A stretch of 64,000 bases of DNA from contig JAAFYY010000001.1 of assembly GCA_014284505.1 (NCBI GenBank), positions 4,154,001 to 4,218,000 of the forward strand, written 5' to 3'. Source of the DNA: Streptacidiphilus sp. 4-A2. GTDB lineage: Bacteria; Actinomycetota; Actinomycetes; Streptomycetales; Streptomycetaceae. A model generated the notes under the pieces. The model made no database searches. It was given only the letters and a program-made list of their open reading frames with translations, and was not told where the DNA came from. How positions within the stretch are numbered: position 1 is the first letter of the stretch; every line of letters starts with the position of its first letter. The position numbers and the translations under genes were made by a program. Of the stretch, positions 41,912 through 60,475 are shown one piece after another.

Positions 41912-43032
41912 TCAGGCCAGGGTCACCCCGCGGTCGGCCAGCCAGGCCAGCGGGTCGGCCGCGGTGTCCCGCCGGGCGGGCTGCTCGACGGCGAAGTGCA
42001 GGCTCGGGCCGGTGACACTGCCGGTGGCCCCGGCGTCCGACCGTGGTGCCCGCGCTGACGCTCTCCCCGGTCCGGACGTCGAACCCGGACAGGTGCCCGT
42101 AACGGCTGTAGGCGCCGTCCGCATGGCGGATCTCCACCAGGTTGCCGTAACTGCCGCCCCAGCCGGCGAAGACCACGGTCCCGGCCGTGGCCGCACGGAC
42201 CGGGGTACCGATCGGCACGGGCAGTTGCACGCCGCTGCCGCCGTCGCTGATCGGCGCGCCCGGTGCTGGTCAGCGTGGTGTGATGGATGATGCTGCGGCC
42301 GAATGTGGGCAGACCGGAGACCGGGGCCGGCCCTGGCCCCGGGGATGGAGTCCGCCGTCCAGCTGAGCTGCTCACCTGGACGGATGAGATCGGGGTCCGC
42401 GCCCACCACGACCCGGTTCTGCGCGTACAGCGACTGCCAGCCGCCGGGGACCTCCGACTGCTCGGCGATGGCCGAGAGGGTCTCCCCCGGGCGGACGGTG
42501 TGCCGCTCCACCCTGGCCTGGGTGTGCGTGGGCTTCCGCTGCGGCGTGGTCGTGCTCTTCGCCGGGGTTTTCGCGGTCCTGACCGGCGCCTTGGGCTGGG
42601 CTCGGGGCGGGGCGGGGCGGGGCCAGGGCCGACGTCGGCGGCACCGTCGGCCCGGGTCAGGCCCGCGCGCACCGAGCACACCGGCCAGGCACCCGGGCCC
42701 TGCGAGCGCAGCACCCGCTGGGCAACGGTGATCTGCTCGGACTCACTGGCCAGGTCGGCGCTGGACGCGTACTCCCCGCCGCCGAAGGCATCCCAGGTGG
42801 AGGCGGAGAACTGGAGTCCGCCCCAGTAGCCGTTGCCGGTCGCGGCCGCCCAGTCGCCGCTGGACTCGCAGGCGGCGACCCGCTGCCACACACCGGGCTC
42901 GGAGGCATGCGCGGCGCCTGCGGTCAGCACCGGGATCGCCGCGCCGACGGCGGTCACCCCGGCCGCCCTGGCCAGGACAGTCCCGCCGGTCGGTGCCGAC
43001 GGCCTGCGGTGACGCCCGTGTCGGGTTGCCAT
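41912..43032 (-). CDS. Rpf-like transglycosylase - LysM - M23-like wall protein (frameshifted)
   Basis: A signal peptide (VLARAAGVTAVGAAIPVLTA) is followed by a resuscitation-factor/SLT domain: WQRVAACESSGDWAAATGNG with the catalytic Glu, then YWGGLQFSASTWDAFGGGEY. A LysM domain (HTVRPGETLSAIAEQ, GGWQSLYAQNRVVVGADPDL) and an M23/LytM fold (GTPVRAATAGTVVFAGWGGS, YSRYGHLSGFDV, GPSLHFAV) follow. The M23 part lacks key zinc ligands: the H-x3-D region reads DGGSGVQL and the H-x-H reads SLH, so it may be inactive. Shifts lie near 42640, 42255 and 42040. AAGGAGAT precedes the ATG at 43032. Confidence 0.85.
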
Positions 43033-43045
43033 GACGTGATCTCCT

Positions 43046-44003
43046 TCAGGGTGAGGTGAGTTTCGCCGCGCTCGTCCAGTCGAGGGAGAGTTGCTGGTCG
43101 TGGGCCAGTCCGACGATGTACGAGGCATGGCCGAACAGCCCCAACGGGCCCCGCTGGTAGACCCACCACGGGTTGGTAGGCCCGGCCGGAGGGCGCGGGC
43201 TGCCAGCTGACGCCGTACTCGTCCCTGCCTCCCCGCTCGGGACGTCCGCGACCCGGAGCGGTCCCGGCGGGCCGGGCGGGGTGCTGACGTAGTAGAAGAC
43301 CCTGCTCGGCCTGGCCGGGCTCGGCAGCACGGTGGTGGACCTGCGGCTGCCGTCGGCGGCGGTGTACCAGATCGCGGCAGCCGCCGGGGCGGGCTTCGGA
43401 GGCGGGGTGGGTTTGGGGGCTGGGTGGGTTTGGGGGGCTGGGTGGGCTTCGGAGGCGCGGTGGGCGCTGAGGTCGGGATGGGCGCTGAGGTCGGGATGGG
43501 CGCTGAGGTCGGGATGGGCGTGGACGTCGGGGTGGACGCTGAGGTCGGGACAGGGGAGGTAGTTGGGGTCGTTGGGGGATCGGGGTGGGCCGAATGGGCG
43601 GAGCAGGAGGTGAGGTGGCGCAGCGGGGCATGGCGATCCGCAGACGTTCGCCGGGGCGGATCAGGTTGGGGTCAGGCCCGACCACGGCCTGGTTCCGCTG
43701 GTAGAGCGCCGGCCAGCCGCCGCGCTGGCAGAGCGCCTGGGCGATCTCACTGAGGTTCTCGCCGGTCCGCACAACATGCGTGCCGGTGGCGGAAGGGGCG
43801 TCCGGTGCGGGTGCCGGGTGCCCCGGCAGCGGGCGGGCCGGGGCCGCGCTGGTCACGGAGGACGGGGTGGCGGCGACCGCCGGGGCGGGCGCGGTGAGCA
43901 GCGGCAGCGCGGCTCCGGCGCCGGTCGCGGCCAGGGCGCCGAGAGCCACCCGCTGCGGGGTGAGCACGGGTTCCGGCGGACGCCGGTGCCGGGCACTGGA
44001 CAT
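43046..44003 (-). CDS. Secreted LysM protein with PIPTSA-repeat stalk (two frameshifts)
   Basis: The N-terminus has an export signal (RVALGALAATGAGAALPLLT). A LysM domain (THVVRTGENLSEIAQ, GGWPALYQRNQAVVGPDPNL, IRPGERL) is nearly identical in its second half to the LysM domains of both neighbours. A Pro-rich stalk follows, which in the coherent frame reads as repeated P-I-P-T-S-A units from the 18-bp DNA repeat at 43462-43551, then PPKPTQ units. The C-terminal 110 residues (IWYTAADGSRRSTTVLPSP, WVYQRGPLGLFGHASYIVGL) form a small domain I do not recognise. Shifts lie near 43610 and 43390. Confidence 0.75.
43462..43551. repeat. Five 18-bp tandem units encoding a hexapeptide stalk
   Basis: Three perfect copies of GGGCGCTGAGGTCGGGAT (43462-43515) are followed by two variants to 43551. 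On the leftward strand each unit encodes P-T-S-A-P-I. The period is a multiple of three, so copy number can vary without frameshift. Confidence 0.9.
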
Positions 44004-44067: not shown

Positions 44068-47000
44068 TCAGCGGGTCGGGTGGGCGGTCAGGTCTCCGAT
44101 CAGGGCCAGCGTCTCCGGCGAGAAGTCGCAGCCGAGGGCGGCGTTGACCTGGGCCAACTGGTTGATGGTGGCGGCCAGGTGCTCCCGTTGGCCGGTGGTC
44201 GCGTACAGCACCATCAGCCCCCGGTGCAGGATCTCCGCCTCGGGCACGGCGGCCAGGCCGCTGTGCAGGGCGGCCTCGCAGCCGGAGTAGTCGCCGCCCG
44301 CCAGGCGGCGCTTGGCGAGTTCGTGCGAGGCGTCGATGATCGCCGAGATCATGTCCTGCCGGTACGGCTCCGCCCACGGATAGAGGCCGTACGCGGCGTC
44401 GAACGGCCGGCCCCGGACCAGGTCCAGGGCGCGGCGCAGGGCCGCGTCGGCGGCCGGGGTGCGCTGGTTCATGCCCTGCCGGTAGAGCTGCTGGAAGTCG
44501 GTCCAGTCGCTGGTGACCGCCGGGTGCAGCCGCCAGCCGGCCGGGGGCAGGCAGAGGGTGCCGTCGGGCGCCTGGCCCAGCCAGTCCCGCAGTTTGCTGA
44601 AGGCCGAGGCGCGGCTGCGCAGTGAACCCTGGCCCGCGGTGCTGCCGGGCAGGGCGACATAGAACGGGCTGGGTGCCAGCACCGCATCCACATCGTGCGG
44701 ATCGGGCTCCGGGCGCAGGGTCAGCAGCGCGGCCAGGGCCGTGAGCTGACTGATCCTGGAGGGGTCGGCGGTGCCATTGGTGGCAATCACCCGGACCTGT
44801 CCGAGCAGCAGCACCCGCGGACCGGCCGCCGAGGGCGTACTGCCCCGCTGGGCGGGCGGCGGGGAGCTGATGTCGTAGCCCTGGGTGAGCGCGGCCAGCG
44901 GCATCACCCGCGGGTCGACCCGCCGGACCGGCGCCGGAGGGTCGGTCCGCACCGGCGGGACCGGGCGCACCGGGGCGGCCGCGCCGGGTGCGTCCCCCCG
45001 ATCAGCGGGACCGCGGTGATCGAGGTCGGGTCCCCGCCCACCACCGCCTGGGCGTTCGCGGCCAGGACCGGGATGTAGAACGGGTCGGGCTCGTCCTCGT
45101 GCAGTTCGGCCTCCAGCAGGGCGGGCTCGGCCGGGTCCGACAGGATGTCGAGCCCGCCCGGTCCGCCGCCGGAGCCGTGTACGCCTCCTCCGACTGCTGG
45201 CGCTGCTCGGCGTCGGGCGACCCGTCGGACATCCCGTCGGGCGACCCGTCCGGCTCGGACGCGGTGGGGTCGAACTCGGCCGGCTCGGACTGAGTCGGCT
45301 CGGAGAAGTGGCCGGTCCAGTCCGGGGGCAGGTCGGACGGGGGCAGCTGGCTGGTCTCCAGCACGCTGAGGGCGGCCGCGAAGTCGGACTCGCTCATCCG
45401 CTGGAGCTCGACCGCGAACGGGAGGTTGCTCGCGATGCGGTAGTGGCCCGGGCGGGCGTCCAGTCGCCAGCCCGCGCCCTGGGCGGCCGGGGTGACCGCC
45501 GCGATGCAGCGGTGCTCCCGTCCGGCGAGGACCCAGCCGAGCTCGTCCAACTGCTCCTGGTTCAGCGCCTGGTCGGTGCAGAGCAGTACCGACACCCAGG
45601 TGTCGGTGGCCACCCCCTGGGACCTGGCCGCGCGCGGATGCGAGATCTGACACTCGGTCAGCGCGTCCTCCAGCGAGCTGCGGTGGGCCACCAGATCGGC
45701 CAGCGCCTGCTCCGGCTGCTCCCGGGTACGGACCCGGTCGATGCCCACGCGGCCGACCAGCGGGGCGGCGCTCCCGAGCACGATCAGCCGCAGGTGGTCC
45801 GCGATCGGGCTGGCGGCCAGCTCCGCCACCAGGGCGCGGGTGACCGAGGCGACCTCCTCCTGCGTGCCGTCCAGGTGCAGATGCCGGACGGTCTCCAGGT
45901 CGGCGAGGACCTGGACTCCGTCGGGGGTGCGGCCGAGGGTGACCAGGGCCGGATAGGGGCGGGGATGTCGGCGGCCTCGGAGGTGGACAGCAGTTCCACC
46001 TCGTTGGTGCGGCAGCGCCACATGCGCCCGTTGGGCGAGGCGGTGAACGGGGCCGGGGCCGGGGCGGAGGAGGGCTCGATCAGATAGAGGTCGATGGTGC
46101 CGCCCGGACGCAGCGCCACCGCCGCCAGCGCCGGGAGCTGACCGCCATGGGTCAGGCAGGTCAGCGCGAGCGTGCGCATGGTGCGGTCGAGCAGGTCCAG
46201 GCCGGAGGGGTCGGCCATGGCCCGGAGATAGGTCTCGTACTGCTGCTCCTCGTCGCTGGGCATGGGGATGCGGCGGCGCGGCGGGCGGCGCTGCTGAAGG
46301 ATGCGGTTGCGGCGCAGCACTCCCAGCAGTCCGGCGGCGAGCAGGCCGCCGATGCCGAGCACCGGCAGCACGATCAGGTCCTCGTCGCCGCTGTCGTGGT
46401 GTCCGGCGGCGTCGGCGGGCGCGGCGTGCACGGTCGGGGTCCCGGCGGGCAGCCCTGGTTCGGTGGTGCCCTCGCCGCTGGGACGGGGGTCGGCGGTGGG
46501 GCTGCTGCCGGTCTCGGGGGAGGTAGTGGGCCTGGACCCGGGCGGAGCGTCGGCCTTGGGCGGGTCCGCCTCGGGCGGTGCGGCGGCGCGGGTGGTGCCG
46601 GTCGGTGCCGGGGCGGTGGTGGTCGCACCGTCGGCGCCCGGTGGGAGCGCCAGTCGCTCGCCGGGGCGGATCAGGTCAGGGTCGGCGCCGATCACCCCGC
46701 GGTTGGCCGCGAAGAGCGCGGGCCAGCCGCCGGGGACACGGTGCTCCTCGGCGATCTCGCTGAGCGTGTCCCCGCTGCGGACGGTCACCTCGGCGTGGCC
46801 GTTCCCGGCGGCCGGAACGACCGCGGAGTCCAGCACGACGGCGCCGGGGGCGGAGGAGTCGGCGGCATCGAGGGCGGGGGCGTCCAGGGCGGCGGCATCG
46901 AGGGCGGCGGCGTGCGGGACCGCGTCCGGGACGGTGGCGTCCGGGATCGCGTCGGGCGCGGCGGGCCGGGTGAAGGCGGCCGGGGCCGCGGTGAGTGCGA

Positions 47001-47816
47001 CCGGGTGGGCCGCGGGCACCGACGCCGGGGCCTGGGGCACCGCGGCCTGTGGCACCACGGCCGGGTGGGACGCGGCGGCGGGCAGCAGGGCCGGGGCGGC
47101 CTCGGCGGGCATGAGCAGGTCCCAGCCCGGCTGGATGGTGCCCTCGGCCTGGAAGACCCGCCCCCCGGCGTCCATGACCCGGCCCTCGTTGAGCCGGGCG
47201 ATGTCCTTCCAGCGTTCGCCGCTGCCCAGTTGGGATTCGGCGATGGACCACAGCGACTCCGCCGGGCGGGTCGCCCGCACCGTGTAGAAGTGCTGGTCGG
47301 CCTGCGGGCTCTCGGTGGCGGTCGACTGGTGCTCGGCCGGGCTGACCGACGCGGGGGCGGTGGCGACGGTGGTGGCACCGGCGTGGACCGGGGTGGCGGC
47401 GAAGGCCCCGGTGGTGGGCAGCAGCGCGAAGATGGCGCCGATCAGCCCGGCGGCGGTGCGCTGGGACCAGCCCATCGCGGGCAGTCGGCGCGGCATCCGG
47501 CCGCGCAGCTGGGCCGGGATCTCCACCACGACGCCCAGCGCGAAGCAGCCCCAGGCGATCCAGCCGACCGCGACCAGTGCCCAGGCGAACAGGCCGCCTG
47601 GTCCGGACTGGTGAGCAGGGCGGAGACGCTCTCGTGCACGGGCAGCGGATTGCTCCCGGCCAGCACCAGCGTCCCGTAGAGCAGCCCGGCCGGCAGGGCG
47701 ATCAGCAGCAGCGCCAGCAGCAGCAGGCTGCCGCCGGCGCGTAGCAGGGCCCACAGCATGCCCGGCTTGCTGCGTGGGAGCGGGTGCGGGCTCGCGGCGT
47801 CCCGGTTTCTGGTCAT
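44068..47816 (-). CDS. LysM/transmembrane/BTAD (SARP-like) giant regulator of the Tad operon (four frameshifts)
   Basis: Joined across breaks near 47605, 45955, 45165 and 44990, this is one protein of about 1,250 residues. Three N-terminal helices (LLLLALLLIALPAGLLYGTL; ALVAVGWIAWGCFALGVVVE; AAGLIGAIFALLPTTGAFA) precede LysM 1 (PAESLWSIAESQLGSGERW), an Ala/Asp/Pro linker and LysM 2 (VTVRSGDTLSEIAEEHRVPG, GVIGADPDLIRPGE). A fourth helix (LIVLPVLGIGGLLAAGLLGV) leads into a cytoplasmic part that ends in a winged helix plus BTAD domain (RASAFSKLRDWLGQ, DWTDFQQLYRQG, LHRGLMVLYATTGQREHLA). The ATG at 47816 overlaps the stop of the TadG-like gene (ATGA). A wall-bound sensor that activates transcription is inferred. 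Confidence 0.85.
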
Positions 47817-48289
47817 GGCTGCTCCGAATTGGGCTGCTGCTGGCCGGTGACGAGGGTGGCTTCGCCCTGGCCGGTGATCGGGATGTTGTCGACACCGATG
47901 ATCGAGAGCATCTTGGTGGCATAGCTGGTCCTGATGGTGACCGCGAGCGTCCTGGGGCCCTCGCAGACCGGTGTGCCGGCCAGACCGAGGCCCGCAAGGT
48001 AGTGCTCGGCGGCCGACTTCGCCTGCGCGCAGTCGATCTGGATGGACTTCCCGCTGATCGCGTCGGCGGCGTTGATCTGCTGGATCCCGGCCCGGGCCGC
48101 CTCGTTGGCGTACTCGTCGGCCTGGACCCCGGCGTCCAGGCGTCCGCTGGAGTCGACGATCAGGGCGAGGGCCAGGACCATGCCGGTGAAGGTGATCGCG
48201 ACAAACAGCGACAGCGCCCCGCGCTGGGGGTCGTCAGTTGCGGCCCGGCGCCGGAGCGCACGCGCGAACTGGATCTGATGCAGCCTCAA
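47813..48289 (-). CDS. TadG-like pilus assembly membrane protein
   Basis: This intact protein of about 158 residues has a positively charged lead, a single N-terminal helix preceded by RGALSLFVAITFTGMVLALA (the TadE/TadG-type pseudopilin element) and an extracytoplasmic domain with two cysteines (QIDCAQAKSAAEHYLAGLGL, GTPVCEGPRTL). The start is uncertain: the TTG at 48289 has GGGGGAG seven bases upstream. The next gene overlaps its stop by 4 bp. It is the last of three TadE/TadG-like proteins in the operon. Confidence 0.75.
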   Translation of the reverse strand: MRLHQIQFARALRRRAATDDPQRGALSLFVAITFTGMVLALALIVDSSGRLDAGVQADEYANEAARAGIQQINAADAISGKSIQIDCAQAKSAAEHYLAGLGLAGTPVCEGPRTLAVTIRTSYATKMLSIIGVDNIPITGQGEATLVTGQQQPNSEQP

Positions 48290-48331
48290 TCTCCTTCTCC
48301 CCCCTCTGTTTCAGTCGCAGTGAGCGTCGAG

Positions 48332-48748
48332 TCACTGCGAGCGGTAGGTGTCGATGACTGCGGTGAAGCTGTACTTGACGGGGGCGCTCCCCGGCAGGCC
48401 GCGTACCAGCAGGTCGGCCAGCGGTACCTGGCAGTTGATGGTGGCGGTGACCGTGCCCTCCTGCCCCGCCCCGCCGCCGGGATGGGAAATGATCTGTGCG
48501 GGCGGGCAGTTGAACCCCTGACCGCCGAGGGTGGCCTGCGCCGCCTGCTGGCCGGCGGTGACCGGGTCGCCCTGGGTCATCGACGCCGCCCGGGCGGCGT
48601 CCCGGGTGGCCTCGGCCACCACTCCGTCGGCCGTGCGGACCCGCCCGGCCGCGACGATCAGGCCCACCAGCACGATGAAGACCGGTACCAGGATCGCCGC
48701 CTCGATGGCGACCGAGCCGCGCTCGGCCCCGACTCGTCCTTGCCTCAC
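48332..48748 (-). CDS. TadE-family pseudopilin
   Basis: This intact protein of about 138 residues begins VRQGRVGAERGSVAIEAAIL and continues PVFIVLVGLIVAAGRVRTAD, the canonical TadE motif in which a Glu five residues into the helix follows the prepilin-type cleavage site. Exported cysteines occur in FNCPPAQIISHPGGGAG and INCQVPLADL. The GTG at 48748 overlaps the stop of the upstream TadE gene (GTGA). TadE-like proteins are processed pseudopilins needed for Flp pilus assembly. Confidence 0.87.
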   Translation of the reverse strand: MRQGRVGAERGSVAIEAAILVPVFIVLVGLIVAAGRVRTADGVVAEATRDAARAASMTQGDPVTAGQQAAQATLGGQGFNCPPAQIISHPGGGAGQEGTVTATINCQVPLADLLVRGLPGSAPVKYSFTAVIDTYRSQ

Positions 48749-49166
48749 GGCAGCCACGCCTCCTTGGGGCTGGTGACCGAGGAGGTGATCCAGCCCCCGC
48801 CGGGCAGCGGCAGCAGCGACTGCGCCTGGACGTGCACGGTGACCCGCACCGCCTTGGTCTGCGGCAGCTGCGTTTCGACGGAGGGCGTGGTCTTCAGGCC
48901 GGCTGCGTACTGCGCGAGGATCTCGTCGGACCGGTGCGCGCCGTCCTTGGGGCCGGACTGGTAGGAGCGGGCCACACTGGCGCCGTCGCGGGCAGCCGTG
49001 AGCGCCACGGTCCGCGCCCACCACCACAGCATGCCCTGCACCACGAGCATGATCAGCAGCAGGACGACCGGGAAGACCATGGCGAAGGTGATCGAGGTAC
49101 TGCCGCCGTCGTCCCCCGCAGCCGGTCCAGCGCTGCGAGGGGACGTGGCGGATGATGATTCGTCAC
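48745..49166 (-). CDS. TadE-family pseudopilin (one frameshift)
   Basis: The GTG at 49166 overlaps the stop of the Flp-like gene. The short basic lead (VTNHHPPRPLAALDRLRG) meets a shift near 49110 and continues GGSTSITFAMVFPVVLLLIM, a TadE helix, then WWWARTVALTAARDGASVAR and an exported domain ending TSSVTSPKEAWLP. The uncorrected frame starts only at the internal ATG at 49080. It is the partner of the downstream TadE gene. Confidence 0.75.
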
Positions 49167-49438
49167 TTAGTGCCCGGGACGGGCGGGGTGGTGATCTGGC
49201 CGTTGAGCTTGGTGACCACCGCGTAGATGCTGCCCAGGATCAGCACCGCGAAGGCGATCACCGCGATGGTGATCAGCGCCTGCTCGATGGAGACCGCGCC
49301 CCGCTCGCCGTCCTCGCGGGCCTTCTTCGTCCGCTCGGTGACCGAGTGCACCAGGTTCGTCGCCAGCAGTACCGGCAGGAACTCCAGCGGCACCGCCTGG
49401 TTCCACAACGCGCCGAGCCGGTTCTTCATTGCGTTCAT
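49163..49438 (-). CDS. Flp-type pilin-like small membrane protein
   Basis: This intact 91-residue protein has a basic amphipathic lead (MNAMKNRLGALWNQAVPLEF), the class III prepilin-like junction GERGAVSIEQALITIAVIAF with Glu at position +5 after the Gly-Ala, and one helix ending ILGSIYAVVTKLNGQI. GAGGAG lies seven bases before the ATG at 49438. It is the best candidate for the major pilin, though the pre-helix lead of about 48 residues is longer than in typical Flp and includes a second hydrophobic stretch. Confidence 0.75.
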   Translation of the reverse strand: MNAMKNRLGALWNQAVPLEFLPVLLATNLVHSVTERTKKAREDGERGAVSIEQALITIAVIAFAVLILGSIYAVVTKLNGQITTPPVPGTK

Positions 49439-49476
49439 CGTGCACTCCTCAGCTGCTGTCGGATCTGTCGTGGCTT

Positions 49477-50364
49477 TCAGATGCCGGCGCCGCTGAACAT
49501 CACGGCGACGGCGGGGTAGGCGATCAGGACGGTCATCAGCATCACCAGGATGGTCCCGGGGATGACCATGCGCTCGGACTCGACGGAAGCCTTGGCCTGC
49601 TCGGCCGCCAGCAGTTCCGAACGCAGGTTGTGGGCACGGGCCCGCAGCGCGGTGTAGATCGAGGCGCCGTCGGTGCCGGACACCTGCATGATGTCGGCCA
49701 GGTCGGTCAGCGCCGACAGTCCCAGCCGCCGGCCCAGGGCGGTCAGCCCGACCCAGGGCGGCTGCCGGTCCAGCGCCGCGCTCTCCATGGCCGCCGCGAA
49801 CTGCCGGAACACCGGCGAACGCCCGACCGTGGCAGCCCGGCGCAGCGACTCGGCCGGGCCGTGGTCGGCGGCCCGCTCCATCGCCACCAGCTCCAGATAG
49901 GCGGAGATGGCGTGCAGATACTCGGTGCGGGCCTCCGCCGCCTGACCCTTGAGCGTCCAGTCGGGCAGGAACCACATCACCGCGGCCAGCGCCAGGGCCC
50001 CGCCCAGGGACAGCAGCAGCGGTGGATGGGCGCCGAACAGCACCGCGAACAGCTGGAGGTAGGGCGGGAAGGCGAGGCCGATCAGCGCGCACAGGGCCTT
50101 GGTCGCCATGAACCGGCTCGGGCTGCGCCCGGTCAGCGCGAGCTGCTGTTCGGGGATGCGCACCCCGGGCAGTTGCAGCAGCGGCACGCCCAGCCGGTCC
50201 AGCAGGGAGCCCGGCGGGAGCGCACGGCCGAGCCCGGAGGCGGGCTGCATCCGCTCCAGCACCGTGCCCAGGTCCGGCGGCGCGGCCCGGAGTTGGGAGA
50301 CCAGCAGGGCCAGCCCCAGGCCGACCACGGCGCCGGCCAGGATCAGCCAGGTCAGTTGCGTCAT
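49477..50364 (-). CDS. tadC: Type II secretion F / TadC-like inner-membrane protein
   Basis: This intact 295-residue protein has an N-terminal helix (TWLILAGAVVGLGLALLVSQ), two central helices (ALIGLAFPPYLQLFAVLFGA, LLLSLGGALALAAVMWFLPD), the T2SSF domain (ISAYLELVAMERAADHGPAE, LADIMQVSGTDGASIYTALR) and a C-terminal helix. It forms the platform with TadB on which the CpaF ATPase acts. The ATG at 50364 overlaps the TadB stop (ATGA). Confidence 0.9.
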   Translation of the reverse strand: MTQLTWLILAGAVVGLGLALLVSQLRAAPPDLGTVLERMQPASGLGRALPPGSLLDRLGVPLLQLPGVRIPEQQLALTGRSPSRFMATKALCALIGLAFPPYLQLFAVLFGAHPPLLLSLGGALALAAVMWFLPDWTLKGQAAEARTEYLHAISAYLELVAMERAADHGPAESLRRAATVGRSPVFRQFAAAMESAALDRQPPWVGLTALGRRLGLSALTDLADIMQVSGTDGASIYTALRARAHNLRSELLAAEQAKASVESERMVIPGTILVMLMTVLIAYPAVAVMFSGAGI

Positions 50365-51301
50365 CGGGCACCGCCCGCTTCTCCGGCCGGGTCGGCGCTC
50401 GGCTCGGGAAGCTTGACCGTGCTGCGCCGGTCGGCTTCGAGGAAGCGTGACACCGGGCGGGCGGTGGCCATGGACTGCATCCAGGCGACCACCGCCACCA
50501 TCGCGGCGACGACCCCGGCCAGCACCAGCTCCCCGGTCAGCGTGGAGTAGGGGCGGATGTAGGTGCGGTCGAACGAGCCCGGCGACCACGACCAGCAGGA
50601 TGATGATGGTGAGCCAGCGGACGGTGACCCGGTGCTTGGCCCGGTCGGCCTCGATGGCCCGGCGCTGCCGCACCTCCTCCCGCACCGACGCCGCGAGGTC
50701 CGTCAACGCCTGCGCCAGGCCCGGGCCGTGGTCGTTGGCTCGCAGTACCAGCGCGGCCAGCACCTTGTCGGCGGTGGCGTCGGAGAGTTCGTTGCCGAGC
50801 ACCCGCAGCGCGTCCTCCAGCCGCCAGCGGGCCAGCAGCCGCTCGGAGAGGTCGGTGATCTCCCGCTCCAGCGCGGCGGGCGCGGTGTTGCGGCTGGTGC
50901 CGACCACCTGCTCCAGACCGCCGCCGGCCACCAGCCGGTCGGACAGCCGCTGGGTCCACTCGGCCAGCGCCTCCAGCCGGACGATCGGACCTTCATGGGC
51001 ACTGGTGGAGGCCAGGAACCAGGGGATCACAAACACCAGCGGGCGCCGCCAGCACCGCCAGCGGGATTCCGGTGACCAGCCAGCCGGCCGGTCCGCCGAC
51101 GGCGGCCAGCGCCAGCTGGATCCGGCGGCGGCGGACCACGGCCGCCGAGGGGGTCCCGCTGGTGCCGAACCAGAGCCTGCGGGCACGCAGGGCCGAGGCG
51201 CTGGGCGCCCCCGGCGCACGGTCCGGGGAGCCCACGAAGAACAGCGCCAGGCAGGCCAGGCCGAGCGCCAGGGCCACTCCGCACAACAGGTAGTCGGTCA
51301 T
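50361..51301 (-). CDS. tadB: Type II secretion F / TadB-like inner-membrane protein (two frameshifts)
   Basis: The start MTDYLLCGVALALGLACLAL and VGGPAGWLVTGIPLAVLAAP are in one frame; after a break near 51040 the T2SSF domain follows (LEALAEWTQRLSDRLVAGGG, RWRLEDALRVLGNELSDATA, HGPGLAQALTDLAASVREEV). A second break near 50578 leads to the last helix and a stop at 50361. TadB and TadC form the inner-membrane platform. The ATG at 51301 overlaps the CpaF stop. Confidence 0.87.
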
Positions 51302-52930
51302 CGCCTGCCTCCGGTGACACGCAGATCCAGCGGACGGCCCCAGCTGCCGTACGGGTTGTCCAGCAGCGCCGGGTCGAAGCCGACCCGGCGCAGGTCGTCC
51401 AGGCAGGCCGGGGGCGTGTTGGGGACGGCCCGGGGTTCCAGGCCGCCCCGGTGCGGCCCGAACACGGTGTTCACCGAGGGGCGGCCGTTCTCGCCGATCC
51501 CGGTGAGCTCCAGCACATGGGAGACGAAGCGGTGCATCCGGCCGCCGATCGGGGTCTCGTCGATCAGCGACATGTGGACGATCAGGTGCACGCCGTTGGC
51601 CAGCAGCCGGTAGGCGAGGCCGTCGTTGATGTTGGCGCCGTACTCCGCGCAGAGCTGGGCGATCCGGTCGGGGACCATGTACGGGGTCTGTGCGTGCATG
51701 GTGGCCATGCCGCCGACGCCGTTGGTCATCGCCTGGAGCATCGGCATGACCTCGCGCGAGCGGACCTCGCCGACGATGATCCGCGACAGCGACATCCGCA
51801 GCGCGGCCGGCATCAGCTCGGTCAGCGTCAGCTCGCCCGAGGGCCGGCCGTCGATCCGCTCGCCGTTGCCCTGCCGCTCCTCGATCGGCACCACCTGCCG
51901 CAGATGGCCGAGGGTGTGCAGCCACAGCTCGTACTCGGACTCCATGGTCGCGACCCGCTCCTCCGCCGGGATCTCCGCGGCCAGCGCCCGCAGCAGCGAG
52001 GTCTTCCCGGCCCGCTGCACCCCGGTGACCAGGATGTGCTTGCGGGCCCTGATCGAGGCGGCGAGGAAGGCGGCCAGGGTGGAGTCGACGCTGCCGAGCC
52101 GCACCATGTCGCCGAGGGTGGCCGAGGCGACCCGGTGGCGGCGGATGGTCACATACGGCCGGGGGGTGACCCCGGTCAGCACCTGGACGCGCATCCCGCC
52201 GTCGAGGCGCATCGCCAGGGTCGGGCTGGAGGTCGACAGCGAGCGCTCGCCGCCGCCGTGCCGCCGGGCCAGGTCCTGGAGCAGCTCCACCAGTTCCTCG
52301 TCGCTGTCGGCGATCGGCGGGACCTGGCGCAGCGGTTCGTTGGAGCGCAGCACGGACACGTTGTCGCAGCCGTTGATGTAGATGTCCTCGACCTGTTCGT
52401 CGTCCAGGTAGGGCTGGAGCCGTCCGGCCCGGTACATCAGGTCGAACACGGCGTCGGCCAGGGCCCGGTCCATCTCCCGGGTCGGCGAGAGGCCGTGGGT
52501 CTGCGCGTAGGCGTCGGACCAGCGGGCCACCACGCTCTCGATCACGGCCCGGCCCCGCTGGCGGCGGGTCTCCTGGTCGGCCGGGGTGTCGCCGGACGAC
52601 TGCTCGTGCAGCTCGTCCGCGACCAGCTTGCGCACCTGCCGGACGGCGGGTAGTCCACCGCGGCTGGCGGCTGGCCTGGGTCCCGGCCCGGCTCCGGCGC
52701 ACGCAGTGGCGTGACCGGAAGCCGGGACAGCGGCGGCGCCGCGTGCCCGGGCGGCGGCCCGGCGTGGCGTCCGGAGGGCGGCGGGTACTGCGGGCCGGGG
52801 TAGGCCGGCTGCGGCTGGGTCCGGGGCGGCTGGGTCTGCTGCGGCTGGGCCTGGGCCTGCTGCGGCTGGGGCTGGCTCGGGGCACCGGCGGCAGGGTGAT
52901 CGGGGCGAGCGGCAGATGGTTAGCGCGCAT
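51298..52930 (-). CDS. cpaF: CpaF/TadA-type secretion ATPase with Pro/Gln-rich N-terminal tail (two frameshifts in the tail)
   Basis: The conserved 445-residue core is intact: LQPYLDDEQVEDIYINGCDN, RLDGGMRVQVLTGVTPRPYV, Walker A VTGVQRAGKTSLLRAL, ERVATMESEYELWL, Walker B SRIIVGEVRSREV and a GGMATMHAQ box. This hexameric ATPase powers Tad pili. Upstream, the frame from ATG 52930 (MRANHLPLAPITLPPVP) shifts near 52885, gives a tail of Gln-Pro repeats (QPQPQQAQAQPQQTQPPRTQ), and shifts again near 52650. The tail is longer than usual for CpaF. Confidence 0.9.
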
Positions 52931-52933
52931 GGC

Positions 52934-54011
52934 TCACCGCCTGCGGGCGCAGCTCGCCGGTCGGTCCGGCGGAGGAATCGGGGCGGTCGGCATCGGTCTT
53001 CCGGTGGGCATCGGGCCAGGAGCCGGGGGCGAGGGCGGCACCGGGCCGGGGTAGGGGCCGGTCATCGGGCCGGTGGTCGGGCCGGGTACGGGCGGGCGTC
53101 CTGGCGGCGTCATCGGGCGCGCCGGGCCGAACTCCCCGTACTCCTGCTCCGGCGCCGGGCCGGGAGCGGTCACCGGTATCGGCGCGGTGTCCTGCTCGTC
53201 GGCCGGAAGCGACACCGGGCGCTGGACCTGCGTCAGCTTGGCCCGGCGGCGGCCTACTTGGGCACGCACCTCGTCAACCACGGTGCGGGTGGCCCAGCAG
53301 CGGCGAGCGGACAAAGCGGCGGTCGTGGGTGTTGCCGCCGTCGGAGAGCACCCCGGCGACGGCGGGCGCGTACGGCAGCAACCCCAGGACCGGAGAGCCG
53401 AGTTGGGCACTGACGTCGGCGGCCTTGTAGGGGCCCTCCTCGACCAGGACCAGTCCGAGCGTGTCCGCGCCGCGGCCGTGGGCGTTCAGGTCGGCGCGCA
53501 GGGCCGCGATCCGCGGGTGGGTGGTGGTCAGCGAGCGCAGTGTCGAGCGGGCGACCACGAGCACCGCGTCCGCACGCCGGGCCAGCACCGCGCTGGGGCC
53601 GGCCGCTCCGGAGCGGCCCAGGTCCACCAGCACATCCACGCCCTGGCCCTCCAGCGCGGCCAGCAGGTTCGCCAGCGACTCCCAGACGTAGGCCAGCCCG
53701 GAGTACTGCGCCGGGTCGCTCACCCCGGGCAGCAGCAACCGGTCGGCGGTGCCGCCCGGCGAGACGTCGGTGAGCTGGGTCATCAGGGTCTGCGCCAACT
53801 GGCCCTGCCGGTCGGCCACTCCGAGCTGACCCAGGCCCCGGCTGGCGTCCAGCCGCCCCTCCAGCGCGCCGGAGAGGATCACCCCGTCCGGGTCGCACTC
53901 GGCCAGCAGCACCCGCCCGCCGCTCTGCAACGGCCAGGCATGCAGCATGGCCAGGGCGGTGACGGTGGCCCCGGGCGCGCCGTGGCCGCCGACGATCGCG
54001 AAGAGCGCCAT
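52934..54011 (-). CDS. CpaE-like / P-loop-fold protein of the Tad operon (one frameshift)
   Basis: The N-terminus MALFAIVGGHGAPGATVTAL occupies the place of a ParA/MinD-type Walker A but lacks the lysine. LLAECDPDGVILSGALEGRL and VLVDLGRSGAAGPSAVLARR occupy the later nucleotide-binding strands. Tad CpaE/TadZ proteins localise the pilus machine at a pole. After a shift near 53310 the C-terminal 130 residues are Pro-rich (GPMTGPYPGPVPPSPPAPGP). Because of a shift in the upstream SAF gene, the two read as one fused ORF here. The stop is 3 bp from the CpaF start. Confidence 0.78.
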
Positions 54012-54012
54012 C

Positions 54013-54712
54013 TCAGCCGCCGCCCTGGGGGCGAACACGACCGCGAACCCGCCGGAGGCGGCGAGCACCGCCAGTTGCGGGGCCTGGGCGCTGGGTACGG
54101 CGACATCGACCACCGTGGTCCCGTCGTTGTCCGCCGCGCCCACGGTGACCACGGTCGCGGCAATCTGCGAACCCACGGGCGGGAGCACCGAGCCGCCCGA
54201 GGTGGAGCCGCCGCCGGAACCGCCGGCCGAGCTGGTGCCGGTGGACACCACCATCACCTGGTTGCCCGGTTGCAGTGCGGCGGCCGGTAGTTGGGAGTCC
54301 TTGGCGGGCAGTCCGATGACCTGCTGGCCCGCCTGGACCAGGGACGAGCGGGTGACGTCGGTGGTGGTCAGGAACTGACCCTGCATCAGATCAGTGGTGG
54401 CGCGCATGCCGACGACGTTCTCCAGGCTGGCCGCGCCGACCGGTTGCAGGGAGGGGTCCAGCGAGATGTGCGCGATCACCAGGTCGGCGGCGCTGATCGA
54501 CTGCCCGGCGGTCACATTGTGCGCCAGCGCCAGCACCGCACTGCGGCGACCGGTGGTGTTGTAGAGGACCGCGCCGCCCAGGCCCCCGGCCGCGACCAGC
54601 GCGACCGCCAGCGCCAGCACCGCCGGGCTGCGCCGCCGTGCGCGGGGGCGCGCGGGGGTGCGGGGACAGTTCCGGTGGTGGCGCCGGGGAGGGGTGGGAG
54701 TGTGGTGGTCAC
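54013..54712 (-). CDS. SAF-domain (CpaB/RcpC-like) pilus assembly protein (two frameshifts)
   Basis: The GTG at 54712 overlaps the upstream stop (GTGA). The start VTTTLPPLPGATTG shifts near 54625 into a membrane helix (LALAVALVAAGGLGGAVLYN) and a SAF domain (VLALAHNVTAGQSISAADLV, MQGQFLTTTDV, GNQVMVVSTG). The end near 54025 needs one base fewer in a C-run to reach the TGA at 54013. CpaB/RcpC proteins are periplasmic parts of Tad secretion. The Ser/Gly-rich loop GGSGGGSTSGGSV is unusual. Confidence 0.8.
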
Positions 54713-55691
54713 TGTGTCTCCTGGGGCGCTACGTTCAGGGCCTGTGCCTGGTCGATGGTGAGGGTGATCCCCGAGTACTTGTGCATGATCTTCGGAACCG
54801 GGTTGCCGATGCCGATGTTGCTGGTCCAGGTGGCGCCCCAGACCGCGTCCGCGGTCACGTTGTAGGTGCCCGCGGCCCGGTAGCCCGACGCGTAGCCGCA
54901 GACCGGCTTCTCGGTCCCGAAACTGCTCCGGTAGGCGGTGGTGACGTTGTCGCAGCTGAAGTCCTGGCTGCCGTCGCCCATGTCCCATTCGACATGCCCG
55001 ATCACCGCGGTCATGCTGACCGTGACCCCGCCCACGGTCACGACCAGTACCGGAAGTTTCATCGGGCTGTGGGTCCACAACCAGACCGGCAGCCCGACCA
55101 GCCCGGTACCGGTGGGGCTGGCGAGGGGCGCGGAGCCGATGGCGACCGGGTAGGTCGCCAGGGTCGCGTACATCGCGGCCGCGATCTGGCCGGGGTCTCC
55201 TGGGCCGGCTGCCCGGGCGGCGGGGTGGGCAGATAGGCGAGGAAGTAGTCGGCCCCGGCCGCGCCACCTGTATAGGGGCAGTACTCCCAGTAGATGGCGC
55301 CGCCGTCGGCCGGGTTGTGCCCGTACCAGACCACCGCGCTCGGCGGGGGCTGCGGGTTGTCCAGTTGGTCGTAGCAGGCGACGCCGTCCCAGAAGCCGTA
55401 GTTGGGCAGCGAGCAGGGAACGGTGGTGCCCTGGTAGGAGCAGGTGCCGCCGCCACCACCTCCGCCGCCGCCGCCACCGGAGCCGCCGGAGCCGCTGCCC
55501 GAGGACGGCGGGGTGGACGCGCCGATGGTGCAGACCCCGGTGACCGGGTCGCAGCTGCCGCCGCCCCCGCCACCGCCACCGCCGTCCGCGACCGCGGTAC
55601 CGGTGGCGGACAGCACGCCGAAGAGCACTGCGCAGGCCGCGGCCACGGTCGCCGCACCGGCCCGCCCGGAGGTGAGGTGTCGAGTCAGCAC
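54709..55691 (-). CDS. Secreted Gly-rich protein of the Tad operon, function unknown (one frameshift)
   Basis: A signal peptide (AATVAAACAVLFGVLSATGT) is followed by two polyglycine runs flanking CDPVTGVCTI, a middle domain with paired cysteines (GTTVPCSLPNYGFWDGVACY, YWEYCPYTGG), and, after a shift near 55195, a PKD-like beta domain (VEWDMGDGSQDFSCDN, KPVCGYASGYRAAGTYNVTA). The GTG at 55691 overlaps the upstream stop. Its place between pilus genes suggests a surface or tip component (inference). Confidence 0.7.
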
Positions 55692-56247
55692 GGCTTGCTC
55701 CTGTTCACTTCGGTCTCGGTGATCCGCCAGCCGTCGGGGCCCAGTTGCGCCTGGGAGACGGACAGGAAGCGGCTGTGCGCGGAGGGCGCGGTGACGTCCT
55801 TGCCGGTGAACTGGTCGACCGTGTGCCAGCCGCTGACGTCCATGCAGTCGGTGACGGTGGCCGTGGGCGGCCGGGCGGCGAGGTCCAACGCGGTGACCCT
55901 GGGGTTGAGTTGCGGCATGCCGACCATGCGCCAGTCGTTGCTGGCGTCCTCCCCACCGCCGAGATGATCTCGACCAGGGCCTTCCCGCCCGCGTAGTCGC
56001 CGAGCGGGACGTTCTGGACGCTGCCCGCGTCCTCAGCGGCGGCCTGGGCCTGCCGCATGCCGGTATAGGCGGCGAGCACCTGGGCGGTGGCCGCCTGGGC
56101 CGGATTCTGGGAGGGGCTCGGCGCGGCGGACCCGGACGGCGCCGCGCCGATCTGCGCGACCTGCCCGGACTGGGCGGCGCAGCCGGCCGGAGCGGCCACC
56201 GCGATCGCGACCACCGGGAGCACCCGGAAAAGGACCTGATGCCTCAT
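55685..56247 (-). CDS. Exported, possibly lipid-anchored protein of the Tad operon (one frameshift)
   Basis: The start MRHQVLFRVLPVVAIAVAAP is a signal sequence ending APAGC, a weak lipobox; Cys would be the lipid anchor. A Gln/Ala-rich helical segment (VLAAYTGMRQAQAAAEDAG) follows, and after a shift near 55950 the C-terminal half (RVTALDLAARPPTATVTDCM, GWHTVDQFTGKDV, GWRITETEVNRSK) looks like an NTF2-like beta sheet. GAAGGGAAA precedes the ATG at 56247. No function is assigned. It overlaps both neighbours. Confidence 0.65.
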
Positions 56248-57204
56248 CAGCTTTCCCTTCGATGGTCGGGCCTGCCCTGGCCGGACCTTCCGTCGTCCGG
56301 CCTGGCCTGATCGGGCCTGCCGGAGTCTGGCCTGCCGGAGTCGGGCGGGTGCGGCGCAGGGCGTCGCGCAGGGCCGCCGGGAGCGCCTCGACCGGCAGCA
56401 CCCCCCGGCCCGCGGCCCGGTTGCGCAGGTGCACCATGCCGGAACCGGCAAACCGGCCCAGGGTGAGCACGGCGGCCTCCGGCTCGCCCAGCAGCGACTG
56501 GTGCAAGCCCTCCGGAGTGAGCACGGCCGGCGCCCCCGGCAGCCCGTCCCGCAGCCGGGTGGCGACCGCCTCCGCCCAGGAGTGGTCGGCCGCCCCGGAG
56601 CGCGCCCGGCGGCCGCCGAGCTGCCTGACCTGCCCCAGAGCGACGTGCCGTCGGCGAGCAGCCGGTCGGGGCCGGTTCCGGCATGACCGGGCTGGGCGTC
56701 GGTGAGCACGGCCCAGGCCCGTGGATCCGCCTCGACATCGACCATCAGCAGGCGGACCGGTGCGGCCGCGCGGCCGACCGCGTGCGTGATCCACTCCCAG
56801 CGCACCCCCAGCAGGTGCGCCAGCCGCAGCGGCAGCCCGGGCGCGGTGAGGTAGAGCTGCTCGTCGCCACCCAGCGACAACTGGCCGGTGGCGTAGACGA
56901 TCAGGCTGCGCGCCGTGGAGTCGGCGGTGGCCTTGAGACCGGCCAGCAGGCTGTCGGCGTCCCGTCCGTCCGGAGTGCTCACCCGGCACTGGGCCGGGCC
57001 GTCGAAGAGCCCGGTCGGCAGCGCGATGCTCATCGCCGCCAGCCGCGCGGCGTGGCGTTCCGGACCGACCCGCGCCCGCGCCGCGTTTGTGGGCAGCAGC
57101 AGCACGATCCGGTGCGGCGGCGCGGTCTGCCTGATCGGCGTGCCGTCCAGACTGTCGGCGGACGGGGTGCGCCAGCCGAAGCTCGCGGTACCGGTACTCT
57201 CCAT
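56247..57204 (-). CDS. Hypothetical first gene of the Tad operon (two frameshifts)
   Basis: No signal peptide or helix is visible; the protein (about 320 residues) reads IVLLLPTNAARARVGPERHA, SLIVYATGQLSLGGDEQLYL, LLGVRWEWITHAVGRAAAPV, then after a shift near 56645 LTPEGLHQSLLGEPEAAVLT. This alternation of strands and helices recalls caspase-like or Rossmann folds, but I cannot assign a family. The tail is a repeated RPDSG/RPDQA run. GGAGGAG precedes the ATG at 57204; the TGA at 56247 overlaps the next ATG (TGATG). It may be cytoplasmic and regulatory. Confidence 0.65.
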
Positions 57205-57398: not shown

Positions 57399-58688
57399 CT
57401 AGCCCTGGGCCTCCCGGGTGTGCTGCCGCAGCGCCGAGCCGGCCAGTTCGGCGACCCGGCACTGCATCTCGTAGGTGACCTTGCCCATGTCGACGTCCCT
57501 GGTGGCATACAGGGCGAGTACCGAGTGCCGCCCGGCGGGCAGGGCGAAGACATAGCCGTCGCCGGTCTCGACCACGATCTGCCGGACCTGTGCGCCGCGG
57601 TCCCCGCTGAGCCCGGCCGCAAGTGCGCGGGCCGCGCCCTGGAGCGCGGACATCATCGCCGAGGCGCCCTCGGCGGCCTCCCGCGCCAGGCTGGGCGACG
57701 CGGCCCAGACCATGCCGTCGGCGGTCACCAGGAGTCCGTGCCGGACACCCGGCAACCCGAGCAGCGGCGCCAGTGCTCCGGCCGCATCGCCCTGGCGCGG
57801 ATCGGTGCTGCCTGGTACGCGGTTCACCGCGGGCCCCCGTCTTGATGGCTCTCGGCCCAGTGGGATCCGGTCCCGCCCAGGCTCGTCACCCTGGCGCGGA
57901 CCGTCGCCCTGGCGGGAGTCGGCCGGGTACGGATCGGACCAACCGGAATCAGAACGGCCGGAATCAGAACGGCCGGAATCGGGTCGGCGCGATTCGGACG
58001 GAGGGAAATCGAACTGGTGCGGGTCCCCGGAGCGGGCGTCCGCGAAGTGGTGTTCGGTGGCGGCCCGGCCGGAATCGGTGCCGCTCTGGAAGGCGCTCCA
58101 GACCGCGCTGCTGCCGCGCAGCCCGGAGGCGGGCGGGACAGGCGGGGCGGGCGGGGTTAACGGATCGGGTGCCGTCGGCGGGTTGGCCGACGGCGGCTCG
58201 GGCCGGGTCCTGACCCACCCCGGTGCCGCCTGGTACCGGGGCCGCTGCGGCGGCGCCTGGGCGGCGAACTGCGGCTGCCCCAGATAGGGGCCTGCCGGGC
58301 CGGGCCGGGGTTTCGGCGCTTTGGCTCGAACCAGTCGGCGGAGGTGGTCCGGGTGTCCGTCCGCCGCCGGGCCTGGGCCGCGACCCGCGCCAGCTGGTCG
58401 AGCACAGCGAGATGGTCGGCCTCCAGCCCGCCGTCGGCGAAGCCCGGGTGCAGCGGGCCGGGGACGGGCAGGTGGGAAGCTGAGGCGGGCGAGCACGGCC
58501 GGAATGCGCACCTCGACCAGATGCCGGGTCTCGGCCGCGCGGGCCCGGCTCTCGGCCGCGCTGGCCGCCGCCTCCTGGGCCACCGCGGCGACCTGCTGCC
58601 GGGAGCGGAGCCAGAGCGGGGTGGTGACCATGCCGGACAGGGTTCCTGCGGCCAGCACCACGGCTACCGCGTCGGCCAGCGGTGTCAA
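57399..58688 (-). CDS. Membrane-anchored Roadblock/LC7 domain protein (two frameshifts)
   Basis: The C-terminal 130 residues are a Roadblock/LC7 domain (LAPLLGLPGVRHGLLVTADG, AEGASAMMSALQGAARALAA, VETGDGYVFALPAGRHSVLA), as in CvnB/MglB proteins that regulate small GTPases. In the same frame it is preceded by a Pro/Ser/Arg linker of about 200 residues with SDSGRSDSG repeats. At the N-terminus are a membrane helix (DAVAVVLAAGTLSGMVTTPL) and a charged coiled coil. Breaks near 58475 and 58330 cancel out. The TTG at 58688 follows AGGGA. A separate GTG start at 57829 for a free Roadblock protein is possible. Confidence 0.7.
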   Translation of the reverse strand: MTPLADAVAVVLAAGTLSGMVTTPLWLRSRQQVAAVAQEAAASAAESRARAAETRHLVEVRIPAVLARLSFPPARPRPAAPGLRRRRAGGRPSRCARPAGAGRGPGPAADGHPDHLRRLVRAKAPKPRPGPAGPYLGQPQFAAQAPPQRPRYQAAPGWVRTRPEPPSANPPTAPDPLTPPAPPVPPASGLRGSSAVWSAFQSGTDSGRAATEHHFADARSGDPHQFDFPPSESRRPDSGRSDSGRSDSGWSDPYPADSRQGDGPRQGDEPGRDRIPLGREPSRRGPAVNRVPGSTDPRQGDAAGALAPLLGLPGVRHGLLVTADGMVWAASPSLAREAAEGASAMMSALQGAARALAAGLSGDRGAQVRQIVVETGDGYVFALPAGRHSVLALYATRDVDMGKVTYEMQCRVAELAGSALRQHTREAQG

Positions 58689-59074
58689 CGGACGTTCCCT
58701 GGTGCGTGCCCGGCCGGTTCGGTGCGGACGGATCGGGCGATCCGGGCGGGTCGCGCGGCGCGCTCGGGCCGACCGGTTCGTCCGGAATCAACTACTCCAA
58801 TTGTGGAGAGCATGACAACTGCGGCCCGCAAGCGCGTGACCTGGTACATGGCTCCCCTCCCCTCGCCTGCGGGCTCCTCGCGACACTGCCGATAGCACGC
58901 GCCTCTACAGCCCCCAGGCGTCGTGCGAATGAAGGGAATCAGACATTGGCGGCCGACCAACAGCGCTCACAAGACGCGTACTTGTCAGAAGCCCGCGCAG
59001 AAGACGCGCATTCCCGGCCGCCAGAATGCCCATTCGCCCGACGCGTACGATCCAGGAGCATTACATTTCCGTAC
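58689..59074. other. Divergent promoter region between Roadblock and TPR-regulator genes
   Basis: No gene is supported in 386 bp. A short inverted repeat CTCCA-ATTG-TGGAG lies at 58795-58808. The regulator frame is open through the region but looks non-coding before the ATG at 59075. GC content dips locally, consistent with promoters on both sides. Confidence 0.45.
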
Positions 59075-60475
59075 ATGAGCCGTAACGCGGAGCCGCGGCC
59101 AGATCATGAACCGACCCCGAATCTCCAGCTCAGCAGCCTCCTTGACGAGGCCAAGCTGTCCAACATGGCCTTCGCACGCGAGGTCCGCGCGATCGCCGCG
59201 CACCACGGCCACACCCTCGCCTGCGACCACAACCACGTCCGCCGCTGGCGCGAGGGCCACGCCAGCCGCGCGGTCCCGCCGCGGTTCATCGCCGAGGCGC
59301 TCTCCCGCCGGCTCGGCCGGGGGCTGTCGCTCTCGGACGTCGGCATGGACGCCCAGGGCCGGATCCCCTCCGCCCAGGGCATGCTGGAGTTCGCCGGCTC
59401 CCCCGCCGAGATCCTCTCGCTGACCCACGCCCTGTGCGGCCCGGCGGAGTCGCTGGACCGCACCCAGCCGAACGGCCCGCTGACCGCGCTGGCCCCGGCG
59501 GTACTGCGCTGGCTGGTGGTCCCGCCGCCCAACGCCCCCGCCCGGCACCTGCCCGGACGCCCGGTCACCTCCGGCGACATCGACCGCGCCAGCACCATGA
59601 GCGCGTTCGACCAGATCGACCGCCGCAGCGGCGGGGCGGTCGCCCGGCTGCCCGCGGTGGAGTTCCTGCGCGTGGGCGTGGTCCCGCTGCTGGGCGCGCA
59701 CTACACCGGCCCCACCGGACGGGACCTGTACAGCGCGGCGGCGCTGTGCACCTACGGCATCGCCCGCTACACCTTCGACGCCGACCTGCCGGGCCTGGCC
59801 AGCCGCTACGCGGTGCTCGCGCTGAGCATGGCGCACCAGGCCGACGACCAGCTGCTCGGCGCGTACATCGTGGCGCTGCTGGCCGAGCAGGCGCTGCTGG
59901 CCGATGCCCCGCAGATCGCGCTGACGTATGTCAGCGCCGCGCTGACCGCCACCGGCGAGCAGGGTCCGCGCGCCCGCGCCGGGCTGCACGCGGTGGAGGC
60001 CCGGGTGCACGCCCGGCTGGACAACCCGGTGCCCGCCAGGGCGGCCACGGCCAGGGCGGAGCGCGGGCTGGCCAAGCCCTCGGCCGCACCCTGCCCGGCC
60101 TGGCTGGAGCACTACGACCACGGCATGGTGGCCCAGAGCGCGGCGCAGTGCGCGCTCGCGCTGGGCAACGCCGCCACCGCCAGGCGCCGGGCCGAGCAGG
60201 CGCTGGGCGCGATCCCGGCCGACCGGGTCCGGGACGCGGTGGTGATCCGGCTGTACCTGGCGGCGGCGCTGGCGCGGCAGGGCAGCGTGGAGGAGTCGTG
60301 CGAGCAGACGGAGGCCGCCCTGCTGCATGCCGACGGCATCGAGTCCAGCGCGGTGACGGTGGCCATGAGGCTGGTGGCCGAGGATCTCCAGAGCCTTTCC
60401 CGGGAGCCGCGGACGGCCTCGGTGCTGCAACGGATCGGCAAGGCGACAAGTCGACAGCCGAGCACCCCGTTGTGA
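59075..60475 (+). CDS. HTH/TPR regulator of the NsdA-like streptomycete family
   Basis: This intact protein of about 466 residues from the ATG at 59075 has an N-terminal helix-turn-helix-like part (LSSLLDEAKLSNMAFAREVR, CDHNHVRRWREGHASRAVPP, AEALSRRLGRGLSLSDVGMD) and a C-terminal array of TPR-like helical pairs (LLAEQALLADAPQIALTYVS, HARLDNPVPARAATARAERG, YLAAALARQGSVEESCEQTE). This layout matches the NsdA/NsdB group of developmental and antibiotic regulators. The start is tentative because AGGAG is 16 bases away. It may link the Tad cluster to differentiation (inference). Confidence 0.8.
   Translation: MSRNAEPRPDHEPTPNLQLSSLLDEAKLSNMAFAREVRAIAAHHGHTLACDHNHVRRWREGHASRAVPPRFIAEALSRRLGRGLSLSDVGMDAQGRIPSAQGMLEFAGSPAEILSLTHALCGPAESLDRTQPNGPLTALAPAVLRWLVVPPPNAPARHLPGRPVTSGDIDRASTMSAFDQIDRRSGGAVARLPAVEFLRVGVVPLLGAHYTGPTGRDLYSAAALCTYGIARYTFDADLPGLASRYAVLALSMAHQADDQLLGAYIVALLAEQALLADAPQIALTYVSAALTATGEQGPRARAGLHAVEARVHARLDNPVPARAATARAERGLAKPSAAPCPAWLEHYDHGMVAQSAAQCALALGNAATARRRAEQALGAIPADRVRDAVVIRLYLAAALARQGSVEESCEQTEAALLHADGIESSAVTVAMRLVAEDLQSLSREPRTASVLQRIGKATSRQPSTPL

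Follow-up and report, generated by a model that had tools for sequence, protein, structure and literature searches.

What is a protein with LysM repeats, transmembrane (TM) helices and a BTAD domain doing at the end of a pilus operon? The question is raised by a Tad/Flp locus of Streptacidiphilus sp. 4-A2, found at positions 44068-57204 of the window (the 64,000-nucleotide stretch analyzed here, to which all positions refer). The locus is chromosomal, lying on an 8.77-Mb contig. A sequence-only reading had taken its last gene for a membrane-spanning transcription activator that would couple the state of the wall or pilus to gene expression. We asked which parts of that proposal hold when the gene is compared with its relatives.

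A leftward Tad/Flp run

Thirteen leftward genes were identified by comparison with an intact relative from the same genus (L039), and they lie in the order listed below, from p294 to the LysM/TM/BTAD gene. The CpaF/TadA ATPase, TadB and TadC, a small Flp pilin and TadE-type pseudopilins occur in a single run, as in a Tad/Flp (type IVc) pilus locus. Both the count and the identities agree with the sequence-only reading, but the run is longer than had been proposed, with two further genes before the thirteen and two after them.

58008-58646, minus strand: 252-aa-type protein, opens the leftward run
57414-57788, minus strand: Roadblock/LC7 protein, upstream part of the run
56345-57204, minus strand: 294-aa-type protein (p294), no Pfam match, frame change
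55688-56172, minus strand: lipoprotein-like, no Pfam match, frame change
54715-55628, minus strand: Gly-rich secreted protein, no Pfam match, frame change
54024-54712, minus strand: CpaB/SAF, frame change
53150-54011, minus strand: CpaE/TadZ, frame change
51307-52930, minus strand: CpaF/TadA ATPase
50370-51301, minus strand: TadB, two frame changes in the 4-A2 assembly
49477-50364, minus strand: TadC
49163-49438, minus strand: Flp-like pilin, weak DUF4244 match
48745-49116, minus strand: TadE (first)
48332-48748, minus strand: TadE (second)
47813-48289, minus strand: TadG-related; 4-nt overlap between its stop and the LysM/BTAD start
44068-47816, minus strand: LysM/TM/BTAD gene, end of the Tad run, four frame changes in the 4-A2 assembly
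43049-43967, minus strand: secreted LysM protein, downstream of the LysM/TM/BTAD gene
41915-42936, minus strand: transglycosylase-like + LysM + M23 peptidase (Rpf/M23-like wall hydrolase), downstream
59075-60466, plus strand: divergent TPR-containing regulator-like gene

The divergent gene, with TPR-like matches, also adjoins the operon in L039-L041 and is a candidate operon regulator. Between it and the operon, positions 58560-59100 are highly conserved among the window, L039 and L040 and contain short repeats such as TACGCGTC and CTTGTGACAAG. No operator was identified in this upstream region, for which the alignment shows only good conservation. A promoter/terminator scan of L039 returned no sigma-70-like promoters, and terminators at chance level; the scan is thus uninformative on operon structure.

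One gene, interrupted in the assembly

In the 4-A2 assembly, the LysM/TM/BTAD gene (47816-44068) falls into five stretches, split by frame changes near 47598, 45958, 45160 and 44997, and the other genes of the thirteen carry at least seven more. Most are one-base losses at G/C runs. Since the assembly is also just 76.5% complete and its other BTAD genes are split as well, sequencing error is the likely cause of the frame changes in this gene and its operon. In close relatives the gene is intact: one uninterrupted frame, 1247 aa long in L039 and 1229 aa in L040, starts at the TadG stop codon. LysM and BTAD thus belong to one gene rather than two, and an artefactual fusion of the two is ruled out by the intact frame in relatives. 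A true pseudogene in 4-A2, broken by real mutations, would account for four frame changes within one gene, but it is hard to reconcile with the frame changes in so many operon genes and other BTAD genes of the same assembly. It also fits poorly with the third-position bias kept by substitutions between the window and L039 (0.25 vs. 0.12 and 0.09), and we consider it very improbable. Judging by the split BTAD genes, frame changes occur genome-wide in this assembly, so any finding in the window that depends on reading frames needs to be checked against relatives.

Domains and predicted topology

The gene encodes one polypeptide, as had been proposed, in which three N-terminal TM helices, LysM repeats and a fourth TM helix precede ~740 cytosolic residues with an FtsK/EccC-like region and a C-terminal winged-helix (wHTH) and BTAD pair of SARP type. 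On the window, its parts are placed as follows.

47685-47729, minus strand: TM1
47545-47598, minus strand: TM2
47395-47454, minus strand: TM3
47116-47289, minus strand: first LysM-like repeat; its SLWxIAE motif is near-invariant in 25 members
46650-46794, minus strand: second LysM repeat, Pfam LysM E 1.6e-8
46285-46386, minus strand: TM4, followed by the basic stretch RRNRILQQRRPPRRR (inside)
45240-46020, minus strand: cytosolic region with no Walker A motif, suggestive of an ATPase domain of FtsK/EccC/TcpA type; the ~45958 frame change lies here
44518-44844, minus strand: winged helix (SARP DNA-binding-domain-like); recognition helix RSRASAFSKLRDWL partly retained
44101-44508, minus strand: BTAD (TPR-like) domain, Pfam E 4e-8

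Hydropathy and charge predict four TM helices with LysM outside and BTAD inside, consistently across members: the loop between TM2 and TM3 is positive, as expected of an inside loop, and the stretch after TM4 is strongly so. Of 25 diverse full-length members, 22 have a Pfam LysM match and 17 a BTAD match. With a LysM domain above the Pfam cut-off and predicted to lie outside the membrane, the protein fits the group of LysM peptidoglycan-binding proteins.

For the middle cytosolic region, the model built from a relative's sequence was of low confidence (pLDDT 56). Its structural and profile matches are weak: EccCb1-D2 at Z 7.5, TcpA at Foldseek E 0.032 and an FtsK profile at E 0.43, with an EccCa match at E 0.0033 in one member. 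The Walker A motif (G-x4-GK[ST]) was found in none of 86 members. These hints, weak but concordant, are suggestive of an FtsK/EccC/TcpA-type ATPase-like domain that lacks Walker A. A profile search against PDB sequences (A4) returned glycosyltransferase matches only, also weak.

A SARP-type module with unevenly retained DNA contacts

The wHTH-BTAD stretch of the window itself was modelled at pLDDT 91. The model matched AfsR with Z 15.8 (231 residues, rmsd 4.5) and EmbR with Z 15.0, against Z 10.5 for the best unrelated match, and Foldseek gave E 1.7e-5. On the strength of this model, the C-terminus can confidently be assigned to the AfsR/EmbR type, a wHTH followed by a BTAD fold.

Whether the module reads DNA is a separate matter. 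Pfam Trans_reg_C, the DNA-binding domain, matched none of the 25 diverse members. The DNA contacts of AfsR have been published (PMC10936776), and we scored six conserved ones (Q48, W74, P79, T88, R94 and K95). Six canonical SARPs of the 4-A2 genome keep four to six of these, whereas the window protein keeps three by a permissive count, the alignment being uncertain around the insertion that separates helices 2 and 3; with the same uncertainty, 42 of 87 family members keep none. In AfsR numbering, the recognition helix of the window retains S91, K92 and R94 and a net charge of +3, but it has A at R87 and D at K95, and W74 is absent. Deep-branching members and most of the plasmid-borne members read keep W74, S91, R/K92 and R94. 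Positions 92 and 94 are both non-basic in roughly 35-40 members, and these essentially form one clade: in the tree the loss maps to a derived, mainly Kitasatospora, group nested among basic members, with a few exceptions under what is a crude label. Conservation among the members without the basic residues reaches 95% in BTAD, against 76% in the recognition helix and 63% in the wing. The Kitasatospora loci keep the full Tad set while the conserved contacts mostly number zero. Given the conserved BTAD and intact Tad locus despite the lost basic residues, it appears unlikely from these alignments that the role for which this clade retains the gene needs DNA reading by the recognition helix. The earlier assignment of the last gene as a transcription activator is thus not borne out: the 25 members show no Trans_reg_C match, the contacts in the window are partial, and a whole clade has dispensed with the basic residues.

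Linkage to Tad genes on chromosomes and plasmids

Is the association with Tad genes peculiar to 4-A2? Among 78 distinct loci, which were collected as relatives of the LysM/TM/BTAD gene, that gene is directly preceded by five or more core Tad genes on its own strand in 64, a count that rules out chance linkage. TadG is the immediate upstream neighbor in 63 of the 78, and in 37 the gap between the two genes is -1 or -4 nt. Several loci without an upstream Tad set are contig ends; the real exceptions, with no Tad genes nearby, are L042-L044 (Streptacidiphilus), L069 and L075. In L042-L044 the LysM/BTAD gene adjoins a wall hydrolase, and a wall hydrolase lies downstream of it in close relatives.

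The linkage that the sequence-only reading noticed in the window is thus widely conserved in relatives, and it extends from chromosomes to plasmids. Relatives occur in 192 plasmid records, mostly typed as non-mobilizable, and all five plasmid regions read contain the Tad cassette, one of them near a conjugal transfer gene. Streptomyces, Micrococcus luteus and Brachybacterium all have plasmids with the cassette from SAF to LysM/BTAD (L127-L131), suggesting that it travels as a module.

What the protein may do

We favor, with a probability of about 0.5, a wall-anchored component of the pilus apparatus that uses SARP-derived protein contacts, over a tethered activator and over a DNA tether. On this account, the actinobacterial Tad/Flp (type IVc pilus) locus has the gene as its final conserved component. 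LysM would tether the base of the pilus to the peptidoglycan that surrounds its exit site. On the cytosolic side, BTAD, which is TPR-like, and the ATPase-like region would dock CpaE, CpaF, TadB, TadC or pilins, and the wall would be opened by the neighboring hydrolases. The wHTH would have bound DNA ancestrally, an ability that some lineages keep and others have given up, and that is hence not part of the conserved core of the function. This reading is supported by the single frame in relatives, the Tad linkage, the consistent topology and the frequency of LysM and BTAD; by the loss of basic residues in a clade that keeps BTAD and the full Tad set; and by the lack of Walker A despite FtsK/EccC/TcpA-like matches, together with the downstream wall hydrolase in close relatives. 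Against it, the loci without Tad genes indicate that the protein can exist apart from the Tad locus, a fold that matches AfsR as closely as this model does would be a surprising scaffold in a protein that had never needed to bind DNA, and the recognition helix of the window keeps S91, K92, R94 and its positive charge.

The alternative closest to the sequence-only reading is a membrane-tethered one-component activator whose LysM and TM parts would sense the state of the wall or pilus and whose SARP module would recognize promoters of this operon or of adjacent genes. The complete SARP fold in the window's own sequence, the predicted placement of LysM outside and the module inside, and the residues kept by deep-branching and most plasmid-borne members all favor it. 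It has to contend with the missing Trans_reg_C match, the absence of W74, R87 and K95 equivalents in the window, the loss of DNA-reading residues across a whole clade with intact loci, and the lack of an identified operator. As a general account of the family we regard it as rather unlikely; a tethered activator may still apply in lineages that keep the basic helix, including 4-A2. The proposed feedback from wall or pilus to transcription thus keeps its structural premises (a SARP-type fold, the topology and the Tad linkage) but gains no support for the activator role, and is not the best-supported general reading. A version confined to the basic-helix lineages, 4-A2 among them, in which a tethered SARP and an inactive FtsK/EccC-like relay pass the state of the wall or pilus to transcription, seems a shade more doubtful still. 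A non-regulatory use of the same parts would be a membrane DNA tether, in which the FtsK-like and winged-helix regions keep plasmid DNA, or DNA entering the cell, close to the Tad apparatus so that it can be transferred or taken up. Beyond the plasmid carriage described above, it draws on the conjugation functions encoded by Cutibacterium acnes Tad plasmids (PMC5696575) and on the chromosomal Tad loci needed for natural transformation of M. luteus (PMC4322843). The latter paper mentions no LysM or BTAD gene, the plasmid records are mostly typed non-mobilizable, Walker A is missing, and the DNA-contact residues are lost in the Kitasatospora clade; we hold this reading to be improbable.

The wall-anchored component would matter because, in wall-thick bacteria, a Tad machine must be anchored to peptidoglycan and its pilus guided through; the LysM/TM/BTAD protein points to a conserved, apparently unstudied part of it. 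A BTAD annotation need not imply a transcription factor, and because some members of the family keep DNA-reading residues while others lack them, anchor and tethered activator can be told apart by direct test.

Comparison with known systems

The sequence-only reading knew of no described mechanism of this kind. The architecture is already on record: Table 2 of a 2013 study (PMC3666418) lists a 'LysM, BTAD' gene in the Tad locus of the C. acnes plasmid pIMPLE-HL096PA1. That study labelled the gene a TadB homolog and left its LysM/BTAD content undiscussed, and public annotation calls relatives LysM or BTAD proteins. The function is apparently unstudied, in that our search, mostly of literature outside subscription journals, found no functional study of a LysM+BTAD Tad gene. 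Nor did the searched literature describe a complete SARP fold in such a setting, the FtsK/EccC-like region that lacks Walker A, or the loss of DNA-contact residues across a clade. The pIMPLE-HL096PA1 locus resembles ours in its gene order, with SAF, TadZ, TadA, two TadB/C genes, an unassigned ORF and three TadE followed by the LysM+BTAD gene, and differs in being plasmid-borne, in coming from a skin bacterium and in having an RcpB-like-labelled gene after LysM+BTAD (PMC3666418).

The likeness of the middle region to FtsK/EccC/TcpA ATPases is weak in both fold and profile, and all 86 members lack the Walker A motif. AfsR and EmbR (PMC10936776; PDB 8hvr, 8k60, 2fez) have a wHTH followed by BTAD and match the window's model over nearly its whole length, but they carry the module N-terminally and have no LysM/TM part. 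In the window protein it is C-terminal, behind LysM and four TM helices, and its recognition helix is partly eroded. CadC/ToxR-type activators have an N-terminal wHTH and one TM helix, and join a cytosolic winged helix to an outside sensor. The window protein is like them in linking a cytosolic winged helix to an outside part, but its wHTH is C-terminal, it has four TM helices rather than one, and it adds a BTAD domain.
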